This document shows positions 1,855 to 14,775 of a stretch of 16,412 nucleotides of DNA, in pieces; position 1 is the stretch's first letter; each line of letters opens with the position of its first letter. This stretch comes from Deltaproteobacteria bacterium (lineage in GTDB: Bacteria; Desulfobacterota; Syntrophia; Syntrophales; JAAYKM01). The stretch covers positions 1 to 16,412 of the forward strand of contig JAGVTI010000195.1 in NCBI GenBank assembly GCA_019136935.1, given 5' to 3'. Below the pieces are notes generated by a model. That model worked only from the letters and a program-made list of their open reading frames with translations. It did not search any database and was not told the DNA's origin. A program made the translations under genes and the position numbers.

Positions 1855-3411
1855 CTACTTGAACTCCCCTTCGTGGAAAACGATGGCCTGGAAGGTGGAA
1901 AACTGGGCGCCCTCGCGCCAGCTCCCCGCGGTCAGGCCCGCCTTCATGCTCAGGTGGTCGAGCATCGTGTCCCGGTCCCAGCCCTGCTCGGGCGCCACCT
2001 GGGGGAGAAAGACCGCCGAGTGCCCGTCCTTGCTGAGGACGACCCCGTCACGCCCCACGACGATGTCCTCATAGCCGGAAACGGGTTTCATGGGGGTCAG
2101 GACGGAGATCTCGATCTCCAGGTCCTTCAATTCGGAAGCGTTGACCGGAGAAAAACGTGGATCCTGGAAAGCGGACTGCAGGGCCATAACCCCCACCAGT
2201 TTCCCCAAGGCCGCGTCGGGAACGAGCCGCCCGATGCAGCCCCTCAACTGCCCCCGTTTCTTGAGGGTCACGAAGACGCCGCGGGGCTGCTGAAGCAGGG
2301 GGGCGAAACCCCGCGCCAGGGGAACGGTCTGGGTGGTCAGGTAACGGGTGATCGCCTCCCGGGCAAAGGCCAGCAGGGCCTTCTTGTCCTCCGGCCGCAG
2401 ATTCGTTTCGGCCGTAACGGGCACCGGGCGCTCCAGGGAACGTGAATCGATCCGTTCTTTCTCTCCCGTCAGGACCACGGCGCCATAACCGACGACCCGA
2501 TTCTGCTCCCCGATGATCGTATCCCCCGAATGGGCGTAACTGATCACCCGTCCTCCTTCGGCCCCCAGGGCCGCGGCGGCGGCCATGGCCGTCATGATGG
2601 GGCCTTCCCCGCAGGCGCAGGTATGGAGGTTCGGCAGGCGACGGCTCATCTGTGCCTGGATGGTATCCTGAAAGAGGCGCGTATCGAGGGTAATGACGGC
2701 GTCCAGGACGGGCAGATCGGATGAGACGGCGTTCCGGGACGACGGATAATGGGAAAGATCGGAACTCGCCACGATCAGGGCGCGGCGGTTTTTCAAGACC
2801 TTCCCGAGTGCCTGGCCCAGGCGCGTGCAGAGGGCCCGGTCGGGAGTGCCGATCAGCACCGGAACAATTTTGGCCTTGGGGAAAACGACCTGGACAAAGG
2901 GAACCTGCACCTCGATGGAATGCTCGGCGGCATGCACACCCTTATCGGCGACGCAGTCCTGGTCTTCCCGCAACAGCTCGGAGTTCACATCCTGATCGAT
3001 TTCGGCAATACCCAGGGGAGTCCGGAATCCCCGCCCCGGGTAGAGGCCGGCCTTCCGGAACCCCGCCGCCGCGTGATTCGTCCCGAGAATGACGACGACA
3101 TCGTAGTGCTGATTCCCTGCCTGGTTGTAGCCGTCGGCGGCAACCTGGCCGGAATAGATATACCCCGCATGGGGCACGATCAGGGCAACGGGTTTCCTGA
3201 CCTCCGGCGGCACGGCGTCTTCGAGATACTTTTCGATCCCCAGCCGCAACGCCTCAGGCGAATCGGAATAAAACTGCCCTGCCACGGCAGGAGAACGGAC
3301 CTCTCCTGACGCACCTCTGCATTCTTCAATCATCACGGCACCCCCTAATAAAAAAATCCCCAGGACAAACGCCCCAATCCATTTTCTCCTGTCCATCACG
3401 GGCCGCCTCAT
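1855..3411 (-). CDS. AmmeMemoRadiSam system proteins B and A fused (MEMO1-AMMECR1), exported
   Basis: 518 residues with two complete domains. Residues about 38-316 are a MEMO1-like domain of the extradiol-dioxygenase fold, with its conserved positions visible: PHAGYIYSG (H81), LGTNH (H113), AEHSIEVQVPF (H164), SSDLSHY (H221) and CACGEGP (C265/C267). Residues about 335-518 are an AMMECR1 domain with the hallmark LRGCIG (389-394). The N-terminus (MDRRKWIGAFVLGIFLLGGAVM...CRGA) is a signal-peptide-like or membrane-anchor segment, so both domains are probably outside the cytoplasm. An alternative ATG at 3396 (MDRRK) is equally plausible. The start lies 6 bases after the stop of the radical SAM gene, so the two are co-transcribed. 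The three families co-occur so regularly that they are named as one system, but its reaction is not established to my knowledge. Confidence 0.9.
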   Translation of the reverse strand: MRRPVMDRRKWIGAFVLGIFLLGGAVMIEECRGASGEVRSPAVAGQFYSDSPEALRLGIEKYLEDAVPPEVRKPVALIVPHAGYIYSGQVAADGYNQAGNQHYDVVVILGTNHAAAGFRKAGLYPGRGFRTPLGIAEIDQDVNSELLREDQDCVADKGVHAAEHSIEVQVPFVQVVFPKAKIVPVLIGTPDRALCTRLGQALGKVLKNRRALIVASSDLSHYPSSRNAVSSDLPVLDAVITLDTRLFQDTIQAQMSRRLPNLHTCACGEGPIMTAMAAAAALGAEGGRVISYAHSGDTIIGEQNRVVGYGAVVLTGEKERIDSRSLERPVPVTAETNLRPEDKKALLAFAREAITRYLTTQTVPLARGFAPLLQQPRGVFVTLKKRGQLRGCIGRLVPDAALGKLVGVMALQSAFQDPRFSPVNASELKDLEIEISVLTPMKPVSGYEDIVVGRDGVVLSKDGHSAVFLPQVAPEQGWDRDTMLDHLSMKAGLTAGSWREGAQFSTFQAIVFHEGEFK

Positions 3412-3417
3412 CCATGT

Positions 3418-4662
3418 TTATGCCCATACCCCGGCGATCTTCTCTCCGCAGAAAAGGCACCGGCCGTTTTTCAGGTGAATTTCTTCGACGAAGAAACTGT
3501 TTCTTTTAATTACCACCTTTCGGCAGCGGGGACAATAGGTGTGGTTTCCGGGGTGATCCGGCACGTTTCCCACGTAGGCATAGCGAATCCCCTTGTCCAT
3601 GGCCATTTGCCGGGCCCGCTCCAGGGTCGCAACGGGGGTGGGCGGCAGGTTCAGGAGCTGGTAATCAGGATGAAACCGGGTGAAATGGATGGGCACATCC
3701 GGCCCGATTTCACCGGCCACCCAGTCGCAGAGGCCCTTCATCATTTTATCCGAATCGTTGAGGGTCGGCACGACCAGGTTGACGATTTCCAGGTGCACCC
3801 GGCTTCGCGCCACCTGGCGAACGCTCCGGAGAACCGGCTTCAGCTCCGCTCCGCACACCTTCCGGTAGAAATCGGGGCTATAGCCCTTGAGGTCTATCTT
3901 GATCGCGTCCAGGCTTTCGCACATCTCCGAAAGGGGCGCCTCGTTCATGAAACCGCAACTGACGAGAACGGACCGGCGACCCTCCTTTTTCGCCAGGCGG
4001 GCGATGTCCAGCAGGTATTCCGTGAACACCGTCGGTTCGTTGTAGGTGAACGCGATGACCGGCGATCGGCGATCCAGGGCGGCCCGGACCACCTTCCGGG
4101 GAGAAACGTAAGTACCGGTGTGATCTTCCGGCGTGGACTGGGATATCTCCCAGTTCTGGCAGAACTTGCAGCGGAAGGGACAACCCGCCGTGGCCAGGGA
4201 AAAGGCATCCGCCCCCGGCAGAAAGTGATAAAAAGGCTTTTTTTCGATGGGATCGACGTGAACCGCCACGGGGCGGCCGTAGACGAGGCTGCGCAACTCG
4301 CCGCCGATGTTTATCCGGGCGCGGCAACGTCCCCGTTCTCCCTCCCGGATGACACAACTCTGGGCGCACAGGAGGCACTGGACAAAATTTTCACGGTGCC
4401 GATAGGCGCCGCCGATCCTCTTTTCCTCCGGCAAATGGCAGGCCGCGCAGTCGGCGCCGGCCAGGCTCGGCGACGTCCAGTAGCGGGCCCGCGGCGCCGT
4501 GCGGATGAGTTCCCCACGAAAATCTCCGGCAAAAGCAACCCCACCGGGGCCGCTCTTCAAAAAGCTCCATGTCCCGTGCAAAAGGGGCGGAAACAGGGCC
4601 ATCCCCGCCAGGCAGGGGGCACATCGCCATGCGGTTTTCAGCAGGTCACGCCGTGAAAGCAT
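3418..4662 (-). CDS. amrS: AmmeMemoRadiSam system radical SAM enzyme, with Tat-type signal
   Basis: 414 residues. The radical SAM cluster motif is C161-x3-C165-x2-C168 (CPFRCKFCQN), preceded by the family landmark VYGRPVAVHVDPIEKKPFYH and by a cysteine cluster C96-x2-C99-x3-C103...C113. The C-terminus carries a zinc-ribbon-like C377-x2-C380...C402-x2-C405. Two unusual features are visible at the N-terminus. SRRDLLK followed by a hydrophobic stretch looks like a twin-arginine export signal, and C72-A-A-C75-H76 is a CxxCH motif of the kind that binds c-type heme. The ribosome site is strong (AAAGGAGG, 7 bases before ATG). The gene is first in a two-gene operon with the MEMO1-AMMECR1 fusion, which also appears exported. 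Substrate and product are unknown. Confidence 0.9.
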   Translation of the reverse strand: MLSRRDLLKTAWRCAPCLAGMALFPPLLHGTWSFLKSGPGGVAFAGDFRGELIRTAPRARYWTSPSLAGADCAACHLPEEKRIGGAYRHRENFVQCLLCAQSCVIREGERGRCRARINIGGELRSLVYGRPVAVHVDPIEKKPFYHFLPGADAFSLATAGCPFRCKFCQNWEISQSTPEDHTGTYVSPRKVVRAALDRRSPVIAFTYNEPTVFTEYLLDIARLAKKEGRRSVLVSCGFMNEAPLSEMCESLDAIKIDLKGYSPDFYRKVCGAELKPVLRSVRQVARSRVHLEIVNLVVPTLNDSDKMMKGLCDWVAGEIGPDVPIHFTRFHPDYQLLNLPPTPVATLERARQMAMDKGIRYAYVGNVPDHPGNHTYCPRCRKVVIKRNSFFVEEIHLKNGRCLFCGEKIAGVWA

Positions 4663-4999: not shown

Positions 5000-6694
5000 T
5001 CACGCCTTCTCCGTTGTCTCCCCGTCGGCCTTCATCCGGAGGTAGGTCTGCACCTTGTCACGGACCGAATCGGGAAGCTTGATGCCCAGGTGCCTCAGCC
5101 TCTTCTCGTACTTTTCGAAGGAACGGGTGTGCTGGGAGGTGTTGATGAAGATCTGCAAATACGACCGGATGCTTCCTTCCAACTCCCTGCGGAATTCCAT
5201 GTCCCGGTTCAGCATATCCTCCACCGGCGCGAGGGCGCGGTAATTGATCGGGCGGCAGATGGCCCGGTAGGCGACAAAGCGCTGGAGAATGTCGGATTCG
5301 TAATTTTTTTCCCGGATGGCCTGTTCCACGACGTTGAGATTGATGCAGTCCATGATCTGGAAATCGTATTCGCCGCCGATAATGTCCTGGATGGCCCGCT
5401 TCGCTCCCTGGTAGCGTTCGCACTGGTTGAACTCCTTGTCGCATCCTTCGATGCAGCGGACATAAAGAACGAAGTCGATATCCGATCCCTGCTGGGACAG
5501 GCCCATATTCACCGAACCCATGACGTCCATGGCGATATCCTGCTGGATCTGCTGGTCAAACCGCAGGGTCACCTCCTCCAGCTGCTCCAGCCGTTCATCC
5601 GTCTCCACTGTCTGGAAAGACCGGTAAAAGTTTTTGATATCGTTATACAATTCAAATTCCGGAATATGAGAATATTTTTCCACCCGGGCATCGTAGTTTT
5701 TCCCCAACCGATGCGCCCGGTAACGTTCCTCATCGACGATCCGTTCCTGCCATTTGCCGTCCCGCCGGACGTATTCGGCGATATCCCGAATCTTTTCTTC
5801 CACGAGTTTCCGGTACAGGATATGCTTGATTTCCCGTCCCTCCATCTCGATCTGGTAGAAGAATCCCCCTTCGGCCACCCGTCCGGAAATTTCCGTCACC
5901 TCGCCTAAAATGGACGGGTTCATGTAAACGGTCCCCTGGGACTCCTGGACCCCCCACTCGTTGTGGACATGACCGGACAGGCACATCAGTACGTCATGAC
6001 GGTCGCCGTAGGCCCGAAGCGCCGGTGAGCCTGAGGTCCCGTAGGTGGTGATCCGGTCCCGGATGCCGTGGGCGGGCTGATGGACCACCAGGATATCCGG
6101 CGTGCTGGTCCTGAAGAACTGGTACATCTCGTTTTTTTCGATGTCGACGCCGATGCCGGCGTTGTGGTGGATGACGTATTTCTCCGGCACCCCCGGCGTC
6201 CAGAGATCGGCCCCGCCGTAACCGGCGATTCTCAACCCGCCGACATCATAGTAATGCAGATGCAGGTCCCGGCCGTGGAGAGCCGTGAACTTGAGGTTCA
6301 TGTCGTAGTTGCCCGGCAGGCAGTACACCTTCGGTCCCTGCGTAACGGAGATCATGTTTTCCAGGACCCGGTACTTCTGTCGCATGACCCGCCGCGCCCG
6401 GTCCGTATACTCCTGGTACTTGTTGCCCTTGGCCCGGACCTCTTCCGAGATCTCGGTCGAATCCAGCAGGCTGTCGATGAAATCCTCGATATAGAGATCC
6501 TCCCGGTTCATCTTGCGGCGGAGACCGTGGAAGAAGGTCTGGAGCTCATGGTAGTTCATGGCCGTGTTCATCGTATAGAAGGGGATGTCGATGAGATCCC
6601 CGGCAACGATGTAGAGATCGGCCTCGGCCTGCTCCAGAAGGATTTTGACCCGCTCGAAATAGCCATGGACATCGGTCGCGAAAATGATTCTCAT
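5000..6694 (-). CDS. Metallophosphoesterase fused to a nucleotidyltransferase domain
   Basis: 564 residues. Residues 1-290 are a calcineurin-like phosphoesterase with its metal-binding motifs in order: D8-x-H10 (ATDVHGY), G32-D33 (AGDLID), G128-N-Y-D (PGNYD), H205 (VVHQP) and G241-H-V-H-N (SGHVHN). After a charged linker, residues about 365-480 show a DNA-polymerase-beta-type nucleotidyltransferase signature: G393-S394 followed by S404-D405-I-D407 (MGSVNMG...GSDIDFVLY), with D444 or D449 (YDFQIMD) as a candidate third carboxylate. A helical tail follows (about 490-555). Substrates are unknown; nucleotide turnover or RNA/protein modification are open guesses. A strong GGAGGAGGT ribosome site precedes the ATG, and the gap to the glk stop is 25 bases, so it is the third gene of the cutA-glk operon. 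The phosphoesterase half is certain; the transferase half is likely. Confidence 0.87.
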   Translation of the reverse strand: MRIIFATDVHGYFERVKILLEQAEADLYIVAGDLIDIPFYTMNTAMNYHELQTFFHGLRRKMNREDLYIEDFIDSLLDSTEISEEVRAKGNKYQEYTDRARRVMRQKYRVLENMISVTQGPKVYCLPGNYDMNLKFTALHGRDLHLHYYDVGGLRIAGYGGADLWTPGVPEKYVIHHNAGIGVDIEKNEMYQFFRTSTPDILVVHQPAHGIRDRITTYGTSGSPALRAYGDRHDVLMCLSGHVHNEWGVQESQGTVYMNPSILGEVTEISGRVAEGGFFYQIEMEGREIKHILYRKLVEEKIRDIAEYVRRDGKWQERIVDEERYRAHRLGKNYDARVEKYSHIPEFELYNDIKNFYRSFQTVETDERLEQLEEVTLRFDQQIQQDIAMDVMGSVNMGLSQQGSDIDFVLYVRCIEGCDKEFNQCERYQGAKRAIQDIIGGEYDFQIMDCINLNVVEQAIREKNYESDILQRFVAYRAICRPINYRALAPVEDMLNRDMEFRRELEGSIRSYLQIFINTSQHTRSFEKYEKRLRHLGIKLPDSVRDKVQTYLRMKADGETTEKA

Positions 6695-8263: not shown

Positions 8264-8368
8264 ATGTACAGAGAAACGAATGATTTTCAATCAAAGGAGT
8301 CTCTCAAAACGGCGATGGGTTTCATAAGGGACAAGAGATTTGAACAGATGACACGGGAAATGCCATGA
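8264..8368 (+). CDS. Possible 34-residue peptide coupled to the cysteine desulfurase
   Basis: An ATG at 8264 opens a 34-codon frame (MYRETNDFQSKESLK...EMP), hydrophilic and lysine/glutamate rich. Its TGA overlaps the desulfurase start as ATGA, the usual geometry of translational coupling. There is no good ribosome site before it (only a distant GGAAAG), and I recognise no homologue. It could be a leader peptide, a decayed end of a lost gene, or chance. Low confidence. Confidence 0.25.
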   Translation: MYRETNDFQSKESLKTAMGFIRDKRFEQMTREMP

Positions 8369-9519
8369 ACTTTCTCTATTTCGACAATGCCGCCACGACA
8401 TGGCCCAAACCGCAGGAAATGCTGGATGCAATGATCCGCTACCAGGAGACGGTGGGGGGAAGCCCCGGCCGGTCCGCCCATCGCCTGTCGATCGAGGCGG
8501 CCCGGATCGTCTACGATACACGGGAAGCCGTGGCGGAACTTTTCGGCATCGACGATCCCTTGCGGATCGTCTTCACCAAGAACGCCACGGAAGGCCTGAA
8601 CACCGCTATTCAGGGGTTGCTGAGACCCGGAGACCACTGCATCACCTCCGGCATGGAACACAACTCCGTCATGCGCCCCCTCCGGGCCATGGAAGCGAAA
8701 GGCGTCGATGTATCCGTCATTCCCTGCCGGGACGACGGCACCCTGGAGCCGTCCGATGTGGAAGCCGCCATCAGGCCCCGCACAAAGCTGATCGTCCTGA
8801 TCCATGCGAGCAACATCATCGGCACCCTCATGCCCGTCCGCAAGGTGGGTGCCATTGCCAAGCGTCACGGCATTCCCCTTCTGGTCGACGCGGCGCAGAC
8901 GGCAGGGGCGATTCCCATCGACGTCGGAGCCATGAATATCGACCTGCTGGCCTTCACGGGCCACAAATCCCTCTTCGGCCCCCAGGGAACGGGAGGACTT
9001 TATATCCGCGAGGGGCTCGACGAGCAAATTCCCCCTCTCATGATGGGAGGAACGGGGAGCCGATCGGAATTCGAAGAGCAGCCGAATTTCATGCCCGACA
9101 AGTACGAATCGGGCACGCCGAACGCCATCGGCCTGGCGGGGTTAGGTGCGGGAATCGGCTTTCTTCGCACCGTGGGGATCGATGCGATCCGGGAAAAAGA
9201 GACGGCCCTGACGAAGGCCTTTCTGGAAGGCGCCGGGACATTGAAGGGAATTCATCTCTACGGTCCCCCGGACATGAGAAAAAGGACCTCCGTGGTGTCC
9301 TTCAACATCGAGGGGATGTCGCCCTCCGAAGCGGCCATGCATCTGGACGAGAATTACAGGATTCTCTGCCGTCCCGGTCTGCACTGCGCCCCCCTGGCTC
9401 ATCGCACGGTGGGGACCTTTCCCCAGGGCACGCTCCGGTTCAGTTTCGGTTATTACAATACCCTCGGCCAGATACAGAAAGCCCTCAAAGCATTGGAAAA
9501 AATCAGCCGGGGACATTGA
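8365..9519 (+). CDS. Class V aminotransferase-fold cysteine desulfurase family protein
   Basis: 384 residues of the PLP-dependent NifS/SufS superfamily, which removes sulfur (or selenium) from cysteine (or selenocysteine) as an enzyme-bound persulfide. Visible residues are the N-terminal YFDNAATTWPKP (5-16), H99 over the cofactor (GMEHNSVMRPL), D175 and Q178 (VDAAQTAG), the Schiff-base lysine K201 (TGHKSLFGPQGTG), and the active cysteine C341 in RPGLHCAPLAH, a compact loop of the SufS/CsdB (group II) kind. The N-terminus and YDTREAVAELFG resemble the stand-alone cysteine desulfurase family often found beside yedF rather than SufS of the Fe-S operon. yedF follows 21 bases downstream. A role in selenium delivery is inferred from the neighbours. 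Confidence 0.92.
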   Translation: MNFLYFDNAATTWPKPQEMLDAMIRYQETVGGSPGRSAHRLSIEAARIVYDTREAVAELFGIDDPLRIVFTKNATEGLNTAIQGLLRPGDHCITSGMEHNSVMRPLRAMEAKGVDVSVIPCRDDGTLEPSDVEAAIRPRTKLIVLIHASNIIGTLMPVRKVGAIAKRHGIPLLVDAAQTAGAIPIDVGAMNIDLLAFTGHKSLFGPQGTGGLYIREGLDEQIPPLMMGGTGSRSEFEEQPNFMPDKYESGTPNAIGLAGLGAGIGFLRTVGIDAIREKETALTKAFLEGAGTLKGIHLYGPPDMRKRTSVVSFNIEGMSPSEAAMHLDENYRILCRPGLHCAPLAHRTVGTFPQGTLRFSFGYYNTLGQIQKALKALEKISRGH

Positions 9520-9540
9520 CGGTAAAGGAAGGAAAACGAC

Positions 9541-10137
9541 ATGACAAAGGAAATCGACGCGCGGGGTCTGTCCTGTCCGCAACCGGTTGTTCTGACGAAA
9601 AAGGCCCTGGAGACGGAAAGGGAAGTGATCGTTTTCGTCGATAACGATATCGCCGCGGAAAATGTGAAGCGACTGGGAGCCAACATGGGCTGCACCGTCA
9701 CGGTGGAGCAGCAAGACGCAAACACGTTCCGCCTGGCTCTTCTGAAATCTTCGGATACCTGCGCCCTGGCCGTAGAAGAGGCCCTGTCCCTGCCTGCGGG
9801 CGGTCCCCTGGTGGTGGTCATCGGAGAAAACCGCATGGGCCGGGGAAACGATGAACTGGGCTATATTCTGATCCGCAGTTTCATTCACACCCTGCTGTCC
9901 CTGGATCCTTTGCCGGAAGCGCTCATCTTTTTCAACACGGGGGTCAAACTGACCGTCCGGGGTTCGGACGTTCTGGACGATCTGCAGGAACTCGAAGCCA
10001 AAGGGGTCAAACTTCTCGTCTGCGGCACCTGCGCCAGCTTCTTCGACATTTCCAGGGACATCGCCGCAGGGGGCGTCTCCAATATGTACGACATCGTTGA
10101 AACCATGAAGAATGCGGGAAAAATCATCGCGCCATAG
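9541..10137 (+). CDS. yedF: Selenium metabolism protein YedF (TusA + DsrE-like domains)
   Basis: 198 residues. The first about 75 form a TusA/SirA-like sulfur-carrier domain with the persulfide cysteine in C12-P-x-P15 (ARGLSCPQPV). Residues about 90-198 are a DsrE/F-like domain (GRGNDELGYILIRSFIHTL...LIFFNTGVKL) with C161-G-T-C164. This two-domain arrangement defines the YedF family, which is associated by genome context with selenium utilisation. It probably receives S or Se from the upstream desulfurase and passes it on; the precise acceptor is not known. A GGAAGGAAAACGAC ribosome region precedes the ATG. The gene is in one transcription unit with the desulfurase. Confidence 0.93.
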   Translation: MTKEIDARGLSCPQPVVLTKKALETEREVIVFVDNDIAAENVKRLGANMGCTVTVEQQDANTFRLALLKSSDTCALAVEEALSLPAGGPLVVVIGENRMGRGNDELGYILIRSFIHTLLSLDPLPEALIFFNTGVKLTVRGSDVLDDLQELEAKGVKLLVCGTCASFFDISRDIAAGGVSNMYDIVETMKNAGKIIAP

Positions 10138-10224
10138 GCGTTTTGTCTCCCACACGGCCCCGCTTCGCCTCTCTTGTTCTGCAGCATGGTAAAATTCGCC
10201 GTTTTATGGTAGCAGAGCGCACAG

Positions 10225-10240
10225 TCATTGAAAACAATGA
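10225..10240. promoter_or_regulatory. Perfect 6-bp palindrome upstream of the DUF3343 gene
   Basis: TCATTG-AAAA-CAATGA is a perfect inverted repeat 18 bases before the DUF3343 start. It could be a repressor site or a weak mRNA hairpin affecting translation of the next gene; nothing else supports either reading. Confidence 0.25.
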
Positions 10241-10258
10241 GGATGGTCGCCGAATAAT

Positions 10259-10492
10259 ATGATGGATCAGCCCGAAAACTACGACGTTGTCTTGTTCAAC
10301 TGCGTCAGCCACGCCATTAAGGCGGAAAAAGTTCTCAAGGCAACAGGCCTGACATTTAAAATCATTCCGGTACCGCGGCACATCAGTTCGGATTGCGGCG
10401 TCTGCCTGCGCTTCCCCCGGGAACAAAAAGGGGCCGTGGAAGCGGCCCTTCAGGGACAGGTCGAGGTCCGGGAAATCCGCCCCCTCTGCTGA
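10259..10492 (+). CDS. DUF3343 small protein, putative Se/S carrier
   Basis: 77 residues matching the DUF3343 family: an N-terminal beta-strand VVLFNCVSHAIKAEKVLK (ferredoxin-like start), PVPRHISSDCGVCLRF in the middle with C46 and C49, and a terminal C77. The S-[SD]-C-G motif is the conserved element of the family, which is commonly adjacent to yedF and the desulfurase and is suggested to act as a sulfur/selenium carrier. The start is ATG 10259 or ATG 10262; neither has a strong ribosome site (GAGGAT is 16 or more bases away). A 121-base gap after yedF may mean its own promoter. The Cys-TGA at its very end is a normal stop. Confidence 0.85.
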   Translation: MMDQPENYDVVLFNCVSHAIKAEKVLKATGLTFKIIPVPRHISSDCGVCLRFPREQKGAVEAALQGQVEVREIRPLC

Positions 10493-11497: not shown

Positions 11498-12832
11498 TCA
11501 AAGCTTTTTCAGCAGATCCTGAGCCGCCAGGTGAATCGGATCCCAGGATGGGCTGAAGGGCGGCGCATAGGCCAGATCGAGGTAGGCAACCTCCTCCAGG
11601 CCCAATCCGGCCCACAGGGCGCATGAAAGGGTATTGACCCGGCTCACCGCCCCGGCTTCCCCGATCGCCTGTGCACCCAGGAGCTTGCCCGTCGAGCGGT
11701 CGGCGATCAGCTTGATCCCGACGGGGCTGTTTCCCGGCATCGCGCCGGCAATGGCGTTTCCCCAGACAATGGTGCTGACGGGATGGAAACCCGCCTGGTT
11801 CGCTTCCCGCTCGTCGATCCCCGTCGCCGCCATTTCCAGGTCGAACAACCGGAAGGACTGGGCGGCGACGATCCCCGGAAAGAGGATGGGCGCGCCGCCG
11901 ATATTGCGGCCCGCGACCCGCCCCTGTTTGTTGGCGATATCCCCCAGGGGGATATGGACCCACCGCATGCTCACGCGGTTGAACACTTCGCAGCAGTCCC
12001 CCACGGCATAGATATTTTCCAGGGGGGTTTTCTGAGAAAAGTCGACCTGGATTGCACCGGTTTTCCCCAGGGGAATACCGGCCTCGGCGGCAAGCCGGGC
12101 ATCCGGTCTGACGCCGATGGCAATGATCAGGAGATCCACTGCCAATTCTCCTGCCGTGGTGGCCAGGTGGAGGCGGCCGTCGTTCCCCCGGGTAATCGAC
12201 TCGGTCTTGGTTCCCGTCAGGGTGATTACACCGTTCCGATCGAGTTCTTCCTGGGCCCGCTTCGAAAAAATCGGGTCCCACCGGGTCACCGGCAGGTTCC
12301 CCATGTTGATGATCGTCGTTTCGATACCCCGGAGCCGCAGGTTCTCGCACATCTCCATGCTGATGAACCCGGCGCCGATGATGGCGGCGCTCCGGACGGG
12401 CTTCATGTCGATATAGGACTTGATCCGGATCGCGTCGTTCAGGCGTTTGAGGGTAAAGACCCCTTCGAGGTCCTGGCCGGGAATGCCCGGCAGGATGGGG
12501 ATCGTCCCCGTCCCGATGGCAAGGATATCGTAATCGATCGTCGAACCTCCTGCAAGCTGTACGGCGGATTCCTTCATATCGATCCGTTCGACGGGCGTCC
12601 GGATCAGCACTTCGATACCGCTGTCCCGGAACCGCTCCGGGGTCCTGGCCACCAGCTTGTTCTCATCCCGGATTACATCACCGATGTAATAGGGCATCGG
12701 TCAGGCCGCGGTGGATACGTAGTCCCCCTGTTCAATCATGACAATGTCGAGGTTCGGGTCACGCCGTTTCGCCTCCGCCGCGACAGATGCGCCCCCGGCA
12801 CCGCTTCCGATAATAACCAGCTTTTTCCCCAT
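11498..12832 (-). CDS. Selenocysteine-containing CoA-disulfide reductase/NADH oxidase-type flavoprotein
   Basis: Read through an in-frame TGA (12703-12701), this is one 444-residue protein. An FAD-binding Rossmann fold opens it (VIIGSGAGGASVAAEAKRR), the NAD(P)H-binding fold is AAIIGAGFISMEMCENL (about 149-165), the second FAD motif is YAVGDCCEV (about 275-283), and the C-terminal dimerisation domain follows. In this family the peroxide- or CoA-disulfide-reactive residue is a single cysteine in a pattern like A-C-G/P-x-PYY. Here the order is STAA-U44-PMPYYIGDVI, with TGA exactly at that place, matching Cys43 of S. aureus CoA-disulfide reductase. A SECIS-like hairpin follows at once. Downstream sequence is fully conserved, arguing against decay. 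ATG 12832 has GGAGG 8 bases upstream and gives the normal N-terminus. The substrate (CoA disulfide, O2, peroxide or polysulfide) is not known. The gene follows lgt by 49 bases. Confidence 0.88.
12667..12703 (-). promoter_or_regulatory. Bacterial SECIS-like hairpin with its UGA codon
   Basis: In the mRNA, UGA (12703-12701) is followed by AUUACAUC-GGU-GAUGUAAU, an 8-bp perfect stem closed by a GGU loop (bases 12690-12672). An outer CCC/GGG clamp (12694-12692 with 12669-12667) is separated by a small internal loop. The loop GGU is nucleotides 19-21 after the UGA. By my count from memory of the E. coli fdhF SECIS, its loop GGU is at the same place. SelB would bind this loop to direct selenocysteine insertion. 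Confidence 0.8.
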
Positions 12833-12881
12833 GGCCGCGTCCTCCTTTCCATGACGTGATGAGGTAATATTTTTTTCCTTC

Positions 12882-13730
12882 TTATCCGCCTCCGAGACGC
12901 CGGGCAGGCCCGCTTTTCGTCCGGCGGACAATCCAGACCGCTACGCCGCTTATGATCATGATAAAGCAGAGAACCTGCCCCATACTGAAGGGTCCCAGGA
13001 CGAATCCCAAATGGGCGTCGGGTTCCCGGACAAATTCGATGAAGAAACGGGCGAACCCGTATCCGATCAGGTACAGTGCGGCCAGAAAACCTTCAAAAGG
13101 CCTTTTCTTTCTTATGAACCAAAGCAGGGCAAACAGAACGATTCCCTCGAAAAAGGCTTCGTAAAGCTGGGAAGGGTGGCGAAGCAGTCCCTCCCGGTCA
13201 TCGGGAAAATACATTCCCCAGGGCATATCGGTCGCACGGCCGTAGAGTTCGCCGTTGATGAAGTTTCCGATTCGCCCGAAGGTGTATCCGAGGGGTATGA
13301 CGGGAACGAGCAGATCCGTAAAACGCCAGAACGATATTTTCGCCTTCCGGCAAAACAGGACCGTTGCCGCGAGAAATCCGACCAGTCCGCCGTGATAGGA
13401 CATGCCGCTGATGCCCGTGAAGCGGATACCATCGGAAAAGTCGAAGGGCAGGAAAATCTCCAGGGGATGGGCCATGTAATAATCGAAGTTGTAAAAAAGG
13501 ACGTATCCGAGCCGCCCTCCCAGAATCACCCCGAGAATCGCCCAGATGAAGTAATCCTGAATCGTCCCGGTTGTGAACTCGTAGTTCTCCTTCCTGATCC
13601 GGTAGCTGACCAGGAGATATGCGAGGCCGAAGGCCACCAGGTACATGAGGCTGTAATACCGGAGCTGGAAAGACCCGATTTCCAGGAGGTTCGGGCTGAT
13701 ATGAAAGGGAAGATGCTGCCAGTCGGTCAA
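12882..13730 (-). CDS. lgt: Prolipoprotein diacylglyceryl transferase
   Basis: 282 residues of an integral inner-membrane enzyme that transfers diacylglycerol from phosphatidylglycerol to the lipobox cysteine of prelipoproteins, the first step of lipoprotein maturation. About seven hydrophobic segments are visible. The Lgt signature GRIGNFINGELYGR (152-165) is complete with R153; H113 in SYHGGLVG and R235 in FVREPDAHLG correspond to essential residues of the E. coli enzyme. Translation starts at TTG 13730 with GGAG 9 bases upstream; no better ATG exists. The gene is 73 bases downstream of trxB and 49 bases upstream of the selenoflavoprotein. Confidence 0.96.
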   Translation of the reverse strand: MTDWQHLPFHISPNLLEIGSFQLRYYSLMYLVAFGLAYLLVSYRIRKENYEFTTGTIQDYFIWAILGVILGGRLGYVLFYNFDYYMAHPLEIFLPFDFSDGIRFTGISGMSYHGGLVGFLAATVLFCRKAKISFWRFTDLLVPVIPLGYTFGRIGNFINGELYGRATDMPWGMYFPDDREGLLRHPSQLYEAFFEGIVLFALLWFIRKKRPFEGFLAALYLIGYGFARFFIEFVREPDAHLGFVLGPFSMGQVLCFIMIISGVAVWIVRRTKSGPARRLGGG

Positions 13731-13803: not shown

Positions 13804-14775
13804 TCATCCGTACGGATTCCCCTTCAATTCCTCGACGTAGAGCTGTGCCGCATATGCCGCGGTAGCCCCGTCGCCGCAGGCCGTGACAACCTGCCGGAGC
13901 AGTTTCCGGGTGCAATCGCCGCAGGCGAAGATTCCCGGTGCCGACGTCCGCATCTGATGATCGACGAGGATGGCCCCGTCATCCGCCAGATCCGCCTGTC
14001 CGGCGACCAGATCGCTATTGGGGATCAGGCCGATGAAAACGAAGACGCCCGCCGCGGGCAGGTCCCAGTTTTTTCCGGCATCCCGGACATCCCGCAGACG
14101 AACACCGGTGACGGCTTCTCCCCCTGTCACCTCTTCGACAACGGCATTCCAGGCAAAGGCAATTTTCCCGCTGTCCAGAGCCCGCTGCTGAAGGATCGCC
14201 GCCGCCCGCAGGCGGTCCCGGCGATGGACGATGGTCACCTTCGAGGCAAAACGTGTCAGGAACAGGGCCTCCTGCACCGCCGTGTCTCCGCCGCCGACGA
14301 CAACCACTTCCCGGTTCCGGTAAAAGGGTCCGTCACAGGTGGCGCAGTAGGAAACACCGCGCCCCGTATATGTTTCTTCACCGGGAACGTCCAGTTTTCG
14401 CCAGTGAGCGCCCGTCGCAACAACCAGGGCCAGGGCCTCGAAGGATTTTTCGCCGGAGCGGACGGCCCAGCCCCTGATCCCGTTCCATTCCATGGGTTCC
14501 ACGCTCGAACAGTCGGCCTGGCTCACCTGCAGACCGAATTGTACCGCCTGCTTTCGAAACTTCTCGACGATCTCGAATCCGCTCGCCCCTTCGGGAATAC
14601 CCGGGTAATTCTCGATCCAGTCCGTTACGGTAATCTGGCTGACCGTGGACGCCCCCTCGATCAGGAGGGCTTTCAGGTTCGCCCGGGCGGCATAGAGTCC
14701 CGCCGTATATCCCGCCGGCCCGCCGCCGATGATGAGGACATCATAAACCGTATCGGGTATGCTTATTTCGGACAT
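13804..14775 (-). CDS. trxB: Thioredoxin reductase
   Basis: 323 residues, the usual length for the low-molecular-weight bacterial enzyme that reduces thioredoxin with NADPH. Visible are the FAD-binding GGGPAG (17-22), the redox disulfide C144-A-T-C147 followed by DGPF, the NADPH-binding GGGDTA (161-166), the HRRDRLRA basic patch (184-191) that prefers the 2'-phosphate, and GIFACGDC (281-288). GGAG lies 10 bases before the ATG. It appears to lead the trxB-lgt-selenoflavoprotein run; pairing two thiol-redox flavoproteins suggests a shared reductive role, which is inference. A classical CATC is present, so this TrxR does not use selenium. Confidence 0.95.
   Translation of the reverse strand: MSEISIPDTVYDVLIIGGGPAGYTAGLYAARANLKALLIEGASTVSQITVTDWIENYPGIPEGASGFEIVEKFRKQAVQFGLQVSQADCSSVEPMEWNGIRGWAVRSGEKSFEALALVVATGAHWRKLDVPGEETYTGRGVSYCATCDGPFYRNREVVVVGGGDTAVQEALFLTRFASKVTIVHRRDRLRAAAILQQRALDSGKIAFAWNAVVEEVTGGEAVTGVRLRDVRDAGKNWDLPAAGVFVFIGLIPNSDLVAGQADLADDGAILVDHQMRTSAPGIFACGDCTRKLLRQVVTACGDGATAAYAAQLYVEELKGNPYG

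Follow-up and report, generated by a model that had tools for sequence, protein, structure and literature searches.

A flavoprotein gene from a Syntrophales bacterium with an in-frame UGA that very probably encodes a catalytic selenocysteine

What does an in-frame stop codon mean when it falls exactly where a flavoenzyme family keeps its catalytic residue? The window that we analysed, a contig stretch of 16,412 nucleotides from a Syntrophales bacterium, raises this question on its minus strand, where the frame 11498-12832 holds a single internal stop, a TGA at 12703-12701, between ...VSTAA and PMPYYIGDVI. The first-pass annotation had read this TGA, in frame and with fitting flanks, as selenocysteine (Sec) in a protein resembling CoA-disulfide reductase (CoADR), and translation of the minus strand bears out both frame and flanks. 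The parts of the gene are as follows:

11498..12832 (-), gene of a putative Sec-containing CoADR-like flavoprotein, 444 residues plus a terminal TGA at 11500-11498
12701..12703 (-), UGA codon 44, at the catalytic position, read as Sec on the strength of homologue codons and alignment to 6ruz, 3icr and 6pfz
12672..12690 (-), bacterial SECIS-like hairpin, ATTACATC-GGT-GATGTAAT, apical loop from 18 nt after the UGA
12841..12848 (-), Shine-Dalgarno sequence, AAAGGAGG, upstream of the ATG at 12832

Pfam places FAD/NAD and dimerisation domains along the frame, and residue 44 aligns, with no gap before it, on the conserved Cys of 6ruz, 3icr and 6pfz. Because the catalytic residue is most likely Sec, written by an internal UGA, normal gene callers cut this gene in two: the list of open reading frames gives a 76-residue frame from a TTG, or 43 residues if counted from the ATG at 12832, and a 399-residue frame from an ATG at 12697, just the stub and truncated enzyme that had been foreseen.

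Codon 44 across the family and the decoding machinery

We gathered homologues from the window's own genome and 59 related ones, 53 of these 60 having a match at E 1e-60; from 297 genomes of the phylum, at least 66 of which had a match at E 1e-90, a figure that is no census of the family because at most five candidates per genome were scored at that threshold; and from one named collection, which supplied 11 loci. The first search yielded 86 matches, of which we took 67; the other 19 are weaker (E values of 1.5e-79 and above), 18 of them lacking an in-frame stop and one having a TAA. Of the 74 matches of the second, two were omitted, both without a stop. Of 144 loci examined, we left out 12 exact duplicates and two whose match falls short of residue 44 (L075 and L086), so that 130 distinct homologues, the window's gene included, could be read, 'distinct' meaning non-identical DNA and many of the rows being closely related. 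In L075 (G044:C162) the match begins at residue 96-99 and one TGA is counted, with residue 44 outside the match.

Codon 44 is TGA in 87 of these homologues, TGC in 23 and TGT in 20; among the 130 we found neither any other codon at this position nor a further stop in frame within the matched stretches. The expectation that the family carries one redox Cys exactly there is thus upheld, every readable homologue having a Cys codon or TGA. The other TGA genes are open to the same miscalling, which for the window's gene would give a stub and a shortened oxidoreductase that lacks its catalytic residue.

The host genome contains selA (591.7 bits), selB (357.1 bits), selD (387.2 bits) and tRNA-Sec (76.8 bits), each above its cut-off; these are the four genes for which the first-pass annotation had proposed a search, and all are present. 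ARAGORN reports a tRNA-SeC with anticodon tca (UCA). The SelD gene (L013, G000:C341, minus strand) has an in-frame TGA of its own, in GAGUACK, and its product is likely a selenoprotein itself. A second tRNA-Sec match, at G000:C9:130-223 (L002), scores 47.7 bits against a gathering score of 47.

Could the TGA instead be a true stop in a degenerate gene, or an error for TGC or TGT? The assembly is fragmented (72.7% complete, 343 contigs) and the ATG at 12697 would open the 399-residue frame downstream, but the same TGA stands in 86 other distinct genes with no further stop, and a sequencing error, the refutation named at the outset, is therefore excluded. Decay of the gene is opposed by the Sec machinery in the genome, by a hairpin kept together with Sec (below) and by purifying selection on either side of the codon: dN is below dS both before and after the TGA in five pairwise comparisons (dN/dS 0.19/1.08 before and 0.12/0.84 after for the window against L026; least clear for L037 before the TGA, at 0.39/0.84; dS saturated for L034 before the TGA). 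With 87 distinct TGA genes and purifying selection, we treat error and pseudogene alike as ruled out for practical purposes. A reading of UGA as some other amino acid, through near-cognate suppression or a reassigned code, is favoured by the open frame only and is scarcely credible, given that the homologues offer Cys codons as the sole alternative, that tRNA-Sec and selB are in the genome, and that, of 12 other window genes checked, 7 end in TGA, which excludes genome-wide reassignment.

Homologue codons, hairpin and selA, selB, selC and selD together support the original proposal, and UGA codon 44 almost certainly encodes Sec. We propose that 11498-12832 is one gene, whose codon 44 would be decoded by tRNA-Sec(UCA), SelA, SelB and a SelD with an in-frame UGA of its own, together with the hairpin and its GGN loop at +18.

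A hairpin that follows selenocysteine

Bacterial SECIS elements are hairpins placed just 3' of the UGA, with a G in the apical loop. The window's hairpin, an 8-bp stem with its GGT loop beginning 18 nt past the UGA, conforms to this rule, and the evidence for it is comparative. By itself the window's gene gives a synonymous-recoding p of 0.104 and a hairpin pair probability of 0.52-0.58, and in the single-sequence fold of the window the minimum-energy structure is not this hairpin but a competing helix; since the window's own fold and p value do not favour it, our claim for the hairpin rests on comparison among relatives. The competing helix does not track Sec: all its pairs form in 24 of 42 Sec genes and in 7 of 13 Cys genes. 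An Rfam search of the window returned no SECIS, its three matches being weak, unrelated and below gathering.

We scanned all 130 genes for hairpins with a G in the first two loop positions, using 200 synonymous recodings as control. The median hairpin energy is -5.8 kcal/mol in the 87 Sec genes against -0.9 in the 43 Cys genes; a hairpin reaching -5 occurs in 78 of the 87 as against 5 of the 43, and a recoding p of 0.05 is reached by 57 and 5, respectively. Nine Sec genes miss the -5 mark, six of which contain the same 8-bp stem, a mismatch having been counted in through the stem-extension rule. Of the five Cys genes that reach it, four form their hairpin elsewhere and the fifth, L036, keeps the Sec-type hairpin.

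Within the window's clade, 335 of 336 cells of the stem are formed (8 pairs in 42 Sec genes), whereas the stem is broken at several pairs in the 13 Cys genes. The third position of codon 53 takes part in stem pairing; in this clade all 42 Sec genes have A there, against 1 of 13 Cys genes (Fisher 3e-11, relatedness ignored), even though GTA makes up just 198 of the 1477 Val codons in those 42 Sec genes; residue 53 itself is Val or Ile in all 42, and Val, Ile, Leu, Ala or Tyr in the 13. A test on 10 independent Sec/Cys pairs, which respects relatedness, agrees: by the -5 criterion the hairpin follows Sec in an average of 7.8 pairs and opposes it in 0.0 (median p 0.008, range 0.004-0.07), and by the criterion of p <= 0.05 the averages are 6.8 and 0.1 (median p 0.016, range 0.004-0.22). 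As judged from these sequences, the putative element is retained where the gene has Sec and has decayed in most Cys orthologues.

Enzyme class, known relatives and neighbourhood

The best NCBIfam models for the Sec protein are CoADRs, all below cut-off (TIGR03385, the CoADR equivalog, at 375.9 bits under a cut-off of 578.8; a second CoADR model at 360.8 bits against 458), and among solved enzymes the nearest, in sequence and in fold, are a CoADR and CoADR/persulfide reductases. Features of the TIGR03385 type are present, namely a single redox Cys/Sec position and a C-terminal Tyr (residue 422). By contrast, residues 364-365 are Ala-Met where 6ruz, 3icr and 6pfz have Tyr-Tyr, a pair that presumably lines the CoA pocket; position 364 is Ser, Pro or Ala in 51 of the 55 rows of the window's clade, and position 365 Met or Leu in 48. 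Because of the sub-cut-off score and a pocket that departs from those of solved CoADRs, we go no further than 'CoADR-like', and at that breadth the label first given to the protein stands. The GDCCE motif (residues 280-281) has a second Cys, Cys281, conserved in the window's clade (51 of 55 rows), its equivalent being found in 20 of 22 rows of the UETP clade as against 1 of the 53 remaining rows.

That selenoproteins of NADH-oxidase type were already known, as the first-pass annotation had suggested, is confirmed by earlier surveys and reviews: a Sec 'NADH oxidase' was listed in 2006 from one sequence, of Geobacter metallireducens (PMC1794560), and again from one sequence in the GOS survey of 2008 (PMC2398784), and a Sec CoADR appears in a 2022 review (PMC9312934) and in a 2026 review, there with the motif UGxP and the representative WP_011365774.1 (PMC13188914). 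By these listings such proteins belong to the same group as the window's gene (PRK09564 / COG0446 / TIGR03385). Against the one sequence of each early survey, we find 87 distinct TGA genes, in a sampling almost wholly of one phylum. The motif separates the window's clade, which has UPMP or UPTP, from the UGxP of the one listed representative (PMC13188914): Pro directly follows Sec in the window and in 53 of the 55 rows of its clade, where UGxP would need Gly. Judged by motif, a UGIP/UGMP group, whose hairpin loop starts at +22, comes closer to the listed proteins. The portions of the open-access PMC literature that were searched yielded no report of a Sec CoADR-like protein from Syntrophales. 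The enzyme type, then, is already known as a selenoprotein, the window's gene belonging to a branch distinguished by its motif and pocket.

Among solved relatives, 6ruz, an NADH-dependent CoA disulfide reductase whose chain is named 'NADH oxidase', has Cys where the window's gene has Sec, Gly rather than Pro after it, and Tyr-Tyr rather than Ala-Met. NADH-dependent persulfide reductases (Npsr; e.g. 3ntd, 6pfz) resemble the window's protein in their FAD/NAD domains and single catalytic Cys position but are described as having a C-terminal rhodanese domain (PMC7969121), for which Pfam gave no match in the 444 residues of the Sec protein. Elsewhere in the host genome lies a longer paralogue with Cys, L087 (G000:C7), whose open frame runs to 521 residues.

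On this family pattern, the product is very likely an NAD(P)H-dependent reductase of the single-Cys class, working through Sec44; Sec at residue 44 and this class, taken jointly, are likewise highly probable. It would form a homodimer with FAD as cofactor and belong to the single-cysteine CoADR/persulfide-reductase/NADH-oxidase group. NAD(P)H would reduce FAD, and electrons would pass from FAD, at its si face, to Sec44. The selenolate would then open an S-S (or S-S(n)) bond through an Se-S intermediate, that bond belonging to a small disulfide, persulfide or polysulfide, probably one linked to CoA, and the next NAD(P)H would restore Sec44. That a CoA-linked di-, per- or polysulfide is the main substrate is a tentative choice, to which we give slightly under an even chance.

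The surroundings of the gene include:

12882..13730 (-), upstream, prolipoprotein diacylglyceryl transferase (Lgt; PF01790, 255.6 bits, cut-off 24.9)
13804..14775 (-), upstream, thioredoxin reductase (TrxR; TIGR01292, 363.6 bits, cut-off 343.45)
8365..9519 (+), cysteine desulfurase family, Sec-lyase-like (TIGR01977, 474.8 bits, cut-off 377)
9541..10137 (+), YedF, a sulfurtransferase-like selenium metabolism protein (TIGR03527, 210.6 bits, cut-off 110)
10259..10492 (+), putative Se/S carrier (PF11823, 71 bits, cut-off 25)

Among 22 other loci of the window's clade, 15 likewise have TrxR and Lgt upstream and in the same orientation as the enzyme gene; of the remainder, one, near a contig end, has Lgt alone and six have neither, as do all six UETP-clade loci. 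The neighbourhood stretches compared differ in length and several stop at a contig end. We considered and rejected the selenium genes at 8365-10492 and the Sec gene as one unit, the former being on the opposite strand and absent beside relatives: neither YedF nor the Se carrier occurs in any of the 28 other distinct neighbourhoods, where the sole desulfurase is one of 35% identity, 8 kb away in L168. The window's own desulfurase-like protein scores 406.6 bits with the SclA model, below its cut-off of 525. The adjacent selenium genes support selenium use by the organism, not a functional unit. Elsewhere in the window, on the minus strand, 5000-6694 encodes one protein with a calcineurin-like phosphoesterase match and a nucleotidyltransferase-like one (MTPAP-like_central, 22.9 bits, below the cut-off of 27), and 1855-4662 holds AmmeMemoRadiSam genes, with a fused Memo and AMMECR1 and an adjoining radical SAM enzyme.

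Might the enzyme be mainly a peroxide reductase like NADH peroxidase, with Sec44 passing through a selenenic acid and protecting the anaerobe from oxygen? The UETP clade has a FUR-family gene just upstream of the enzyme in three of its six loci, and in L020 the next gene, on the other strand, is an AhpC/TSA peroxiredoxin (the loci concerned are L017, L021, L024 and L020); yet in the stretches compared for the window's clade we found no relative of that peroxiredoxin, and a relative of the FUR gene just once (L170, 32% identity, several kb off). NADH peroxidase and water-forming NADH oxidase (1npx, 2bc0, 5vn0) are 23-28% identical to the window's protein, and at residue 12, which in ungapped numbering we take to be the position of His10, an active-site residue of NADH peroxidase, 124 of the 130 rows, the window's included, have Ala (the others being four gaps, one Ser and one Thr). 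The low identity and missing His set this class back as a first choice and, with the nearest solved enzymes being CoADR and CoADR/persulfide reductases, we consider a peroxidase role unlikely, preferring the disulfide, persulfide or polysulfide reductase described above.

We are doubtful, though not dismissive, of a further idea, that the UPMP clade is a separate selenoenzyme rather than a Sec copy of CoADR. If it were, the Pro after Sec and the lost Tyr-Tyr would admit a different oxidant, and the SECIS stem would constrain the protein sequence, at residue 53.

Exchange of selenocysteine and cysteine

Sec and Cys have changed places at least 13 times on the tree, 10 of these changes being forced by starred branches; the tree is a quick one under a simple model, unrooted and without an outgroup, with a program warning of long branches among Cys rows, and the count gives no direction. 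Among the Sec groups we distinguish three hairpin designs: a GGN loop at +18 in the UPMP (42 Sec) and UETP (22 Sec) groups; an RGGT-like loop at +22 in the USIP/UGIP group (21 Sec genes); and the loops of two lone Sec genes, L151 and L156, at +27 and +20. Because of these designs we read Sec as having probably arisen more than once at the same site, of which an unrooted quick tree is no proof. L151 and L156 sit within an otherwise Cys group (CGMPYNIA type) and are perhaps independent gains of Sec. In the other direction, the Cys orthologues L036, L040 and L055 keep a recognisable remnant of the hairpin, which suggests a recent change from Sec to Cys in each.

Cys forms do not usually result from loss of the Sec machinery, as 8 of the 9 genomes with Cys forms only (among matches at E 1e-60) retain selB. 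In four genomes (G005, G015, G021 and G037) members of the window's clade occur in both Sec and Cys form, and L037 (Sec) and L033 (Cys) are close sisters on the tree; these sisters and the four genomes offer material for a test of Sec against Cys. With at least 13 Sec/Cys exchanges and selB usually kept, the family amounts to a natural experiment on the benefit of selenium to an anaerobe, and the repeated exchange, the mostly retained selB and the staged decay of the hairpin would allow a test of what leads an anaerobe to invest selenium in this enzyme.
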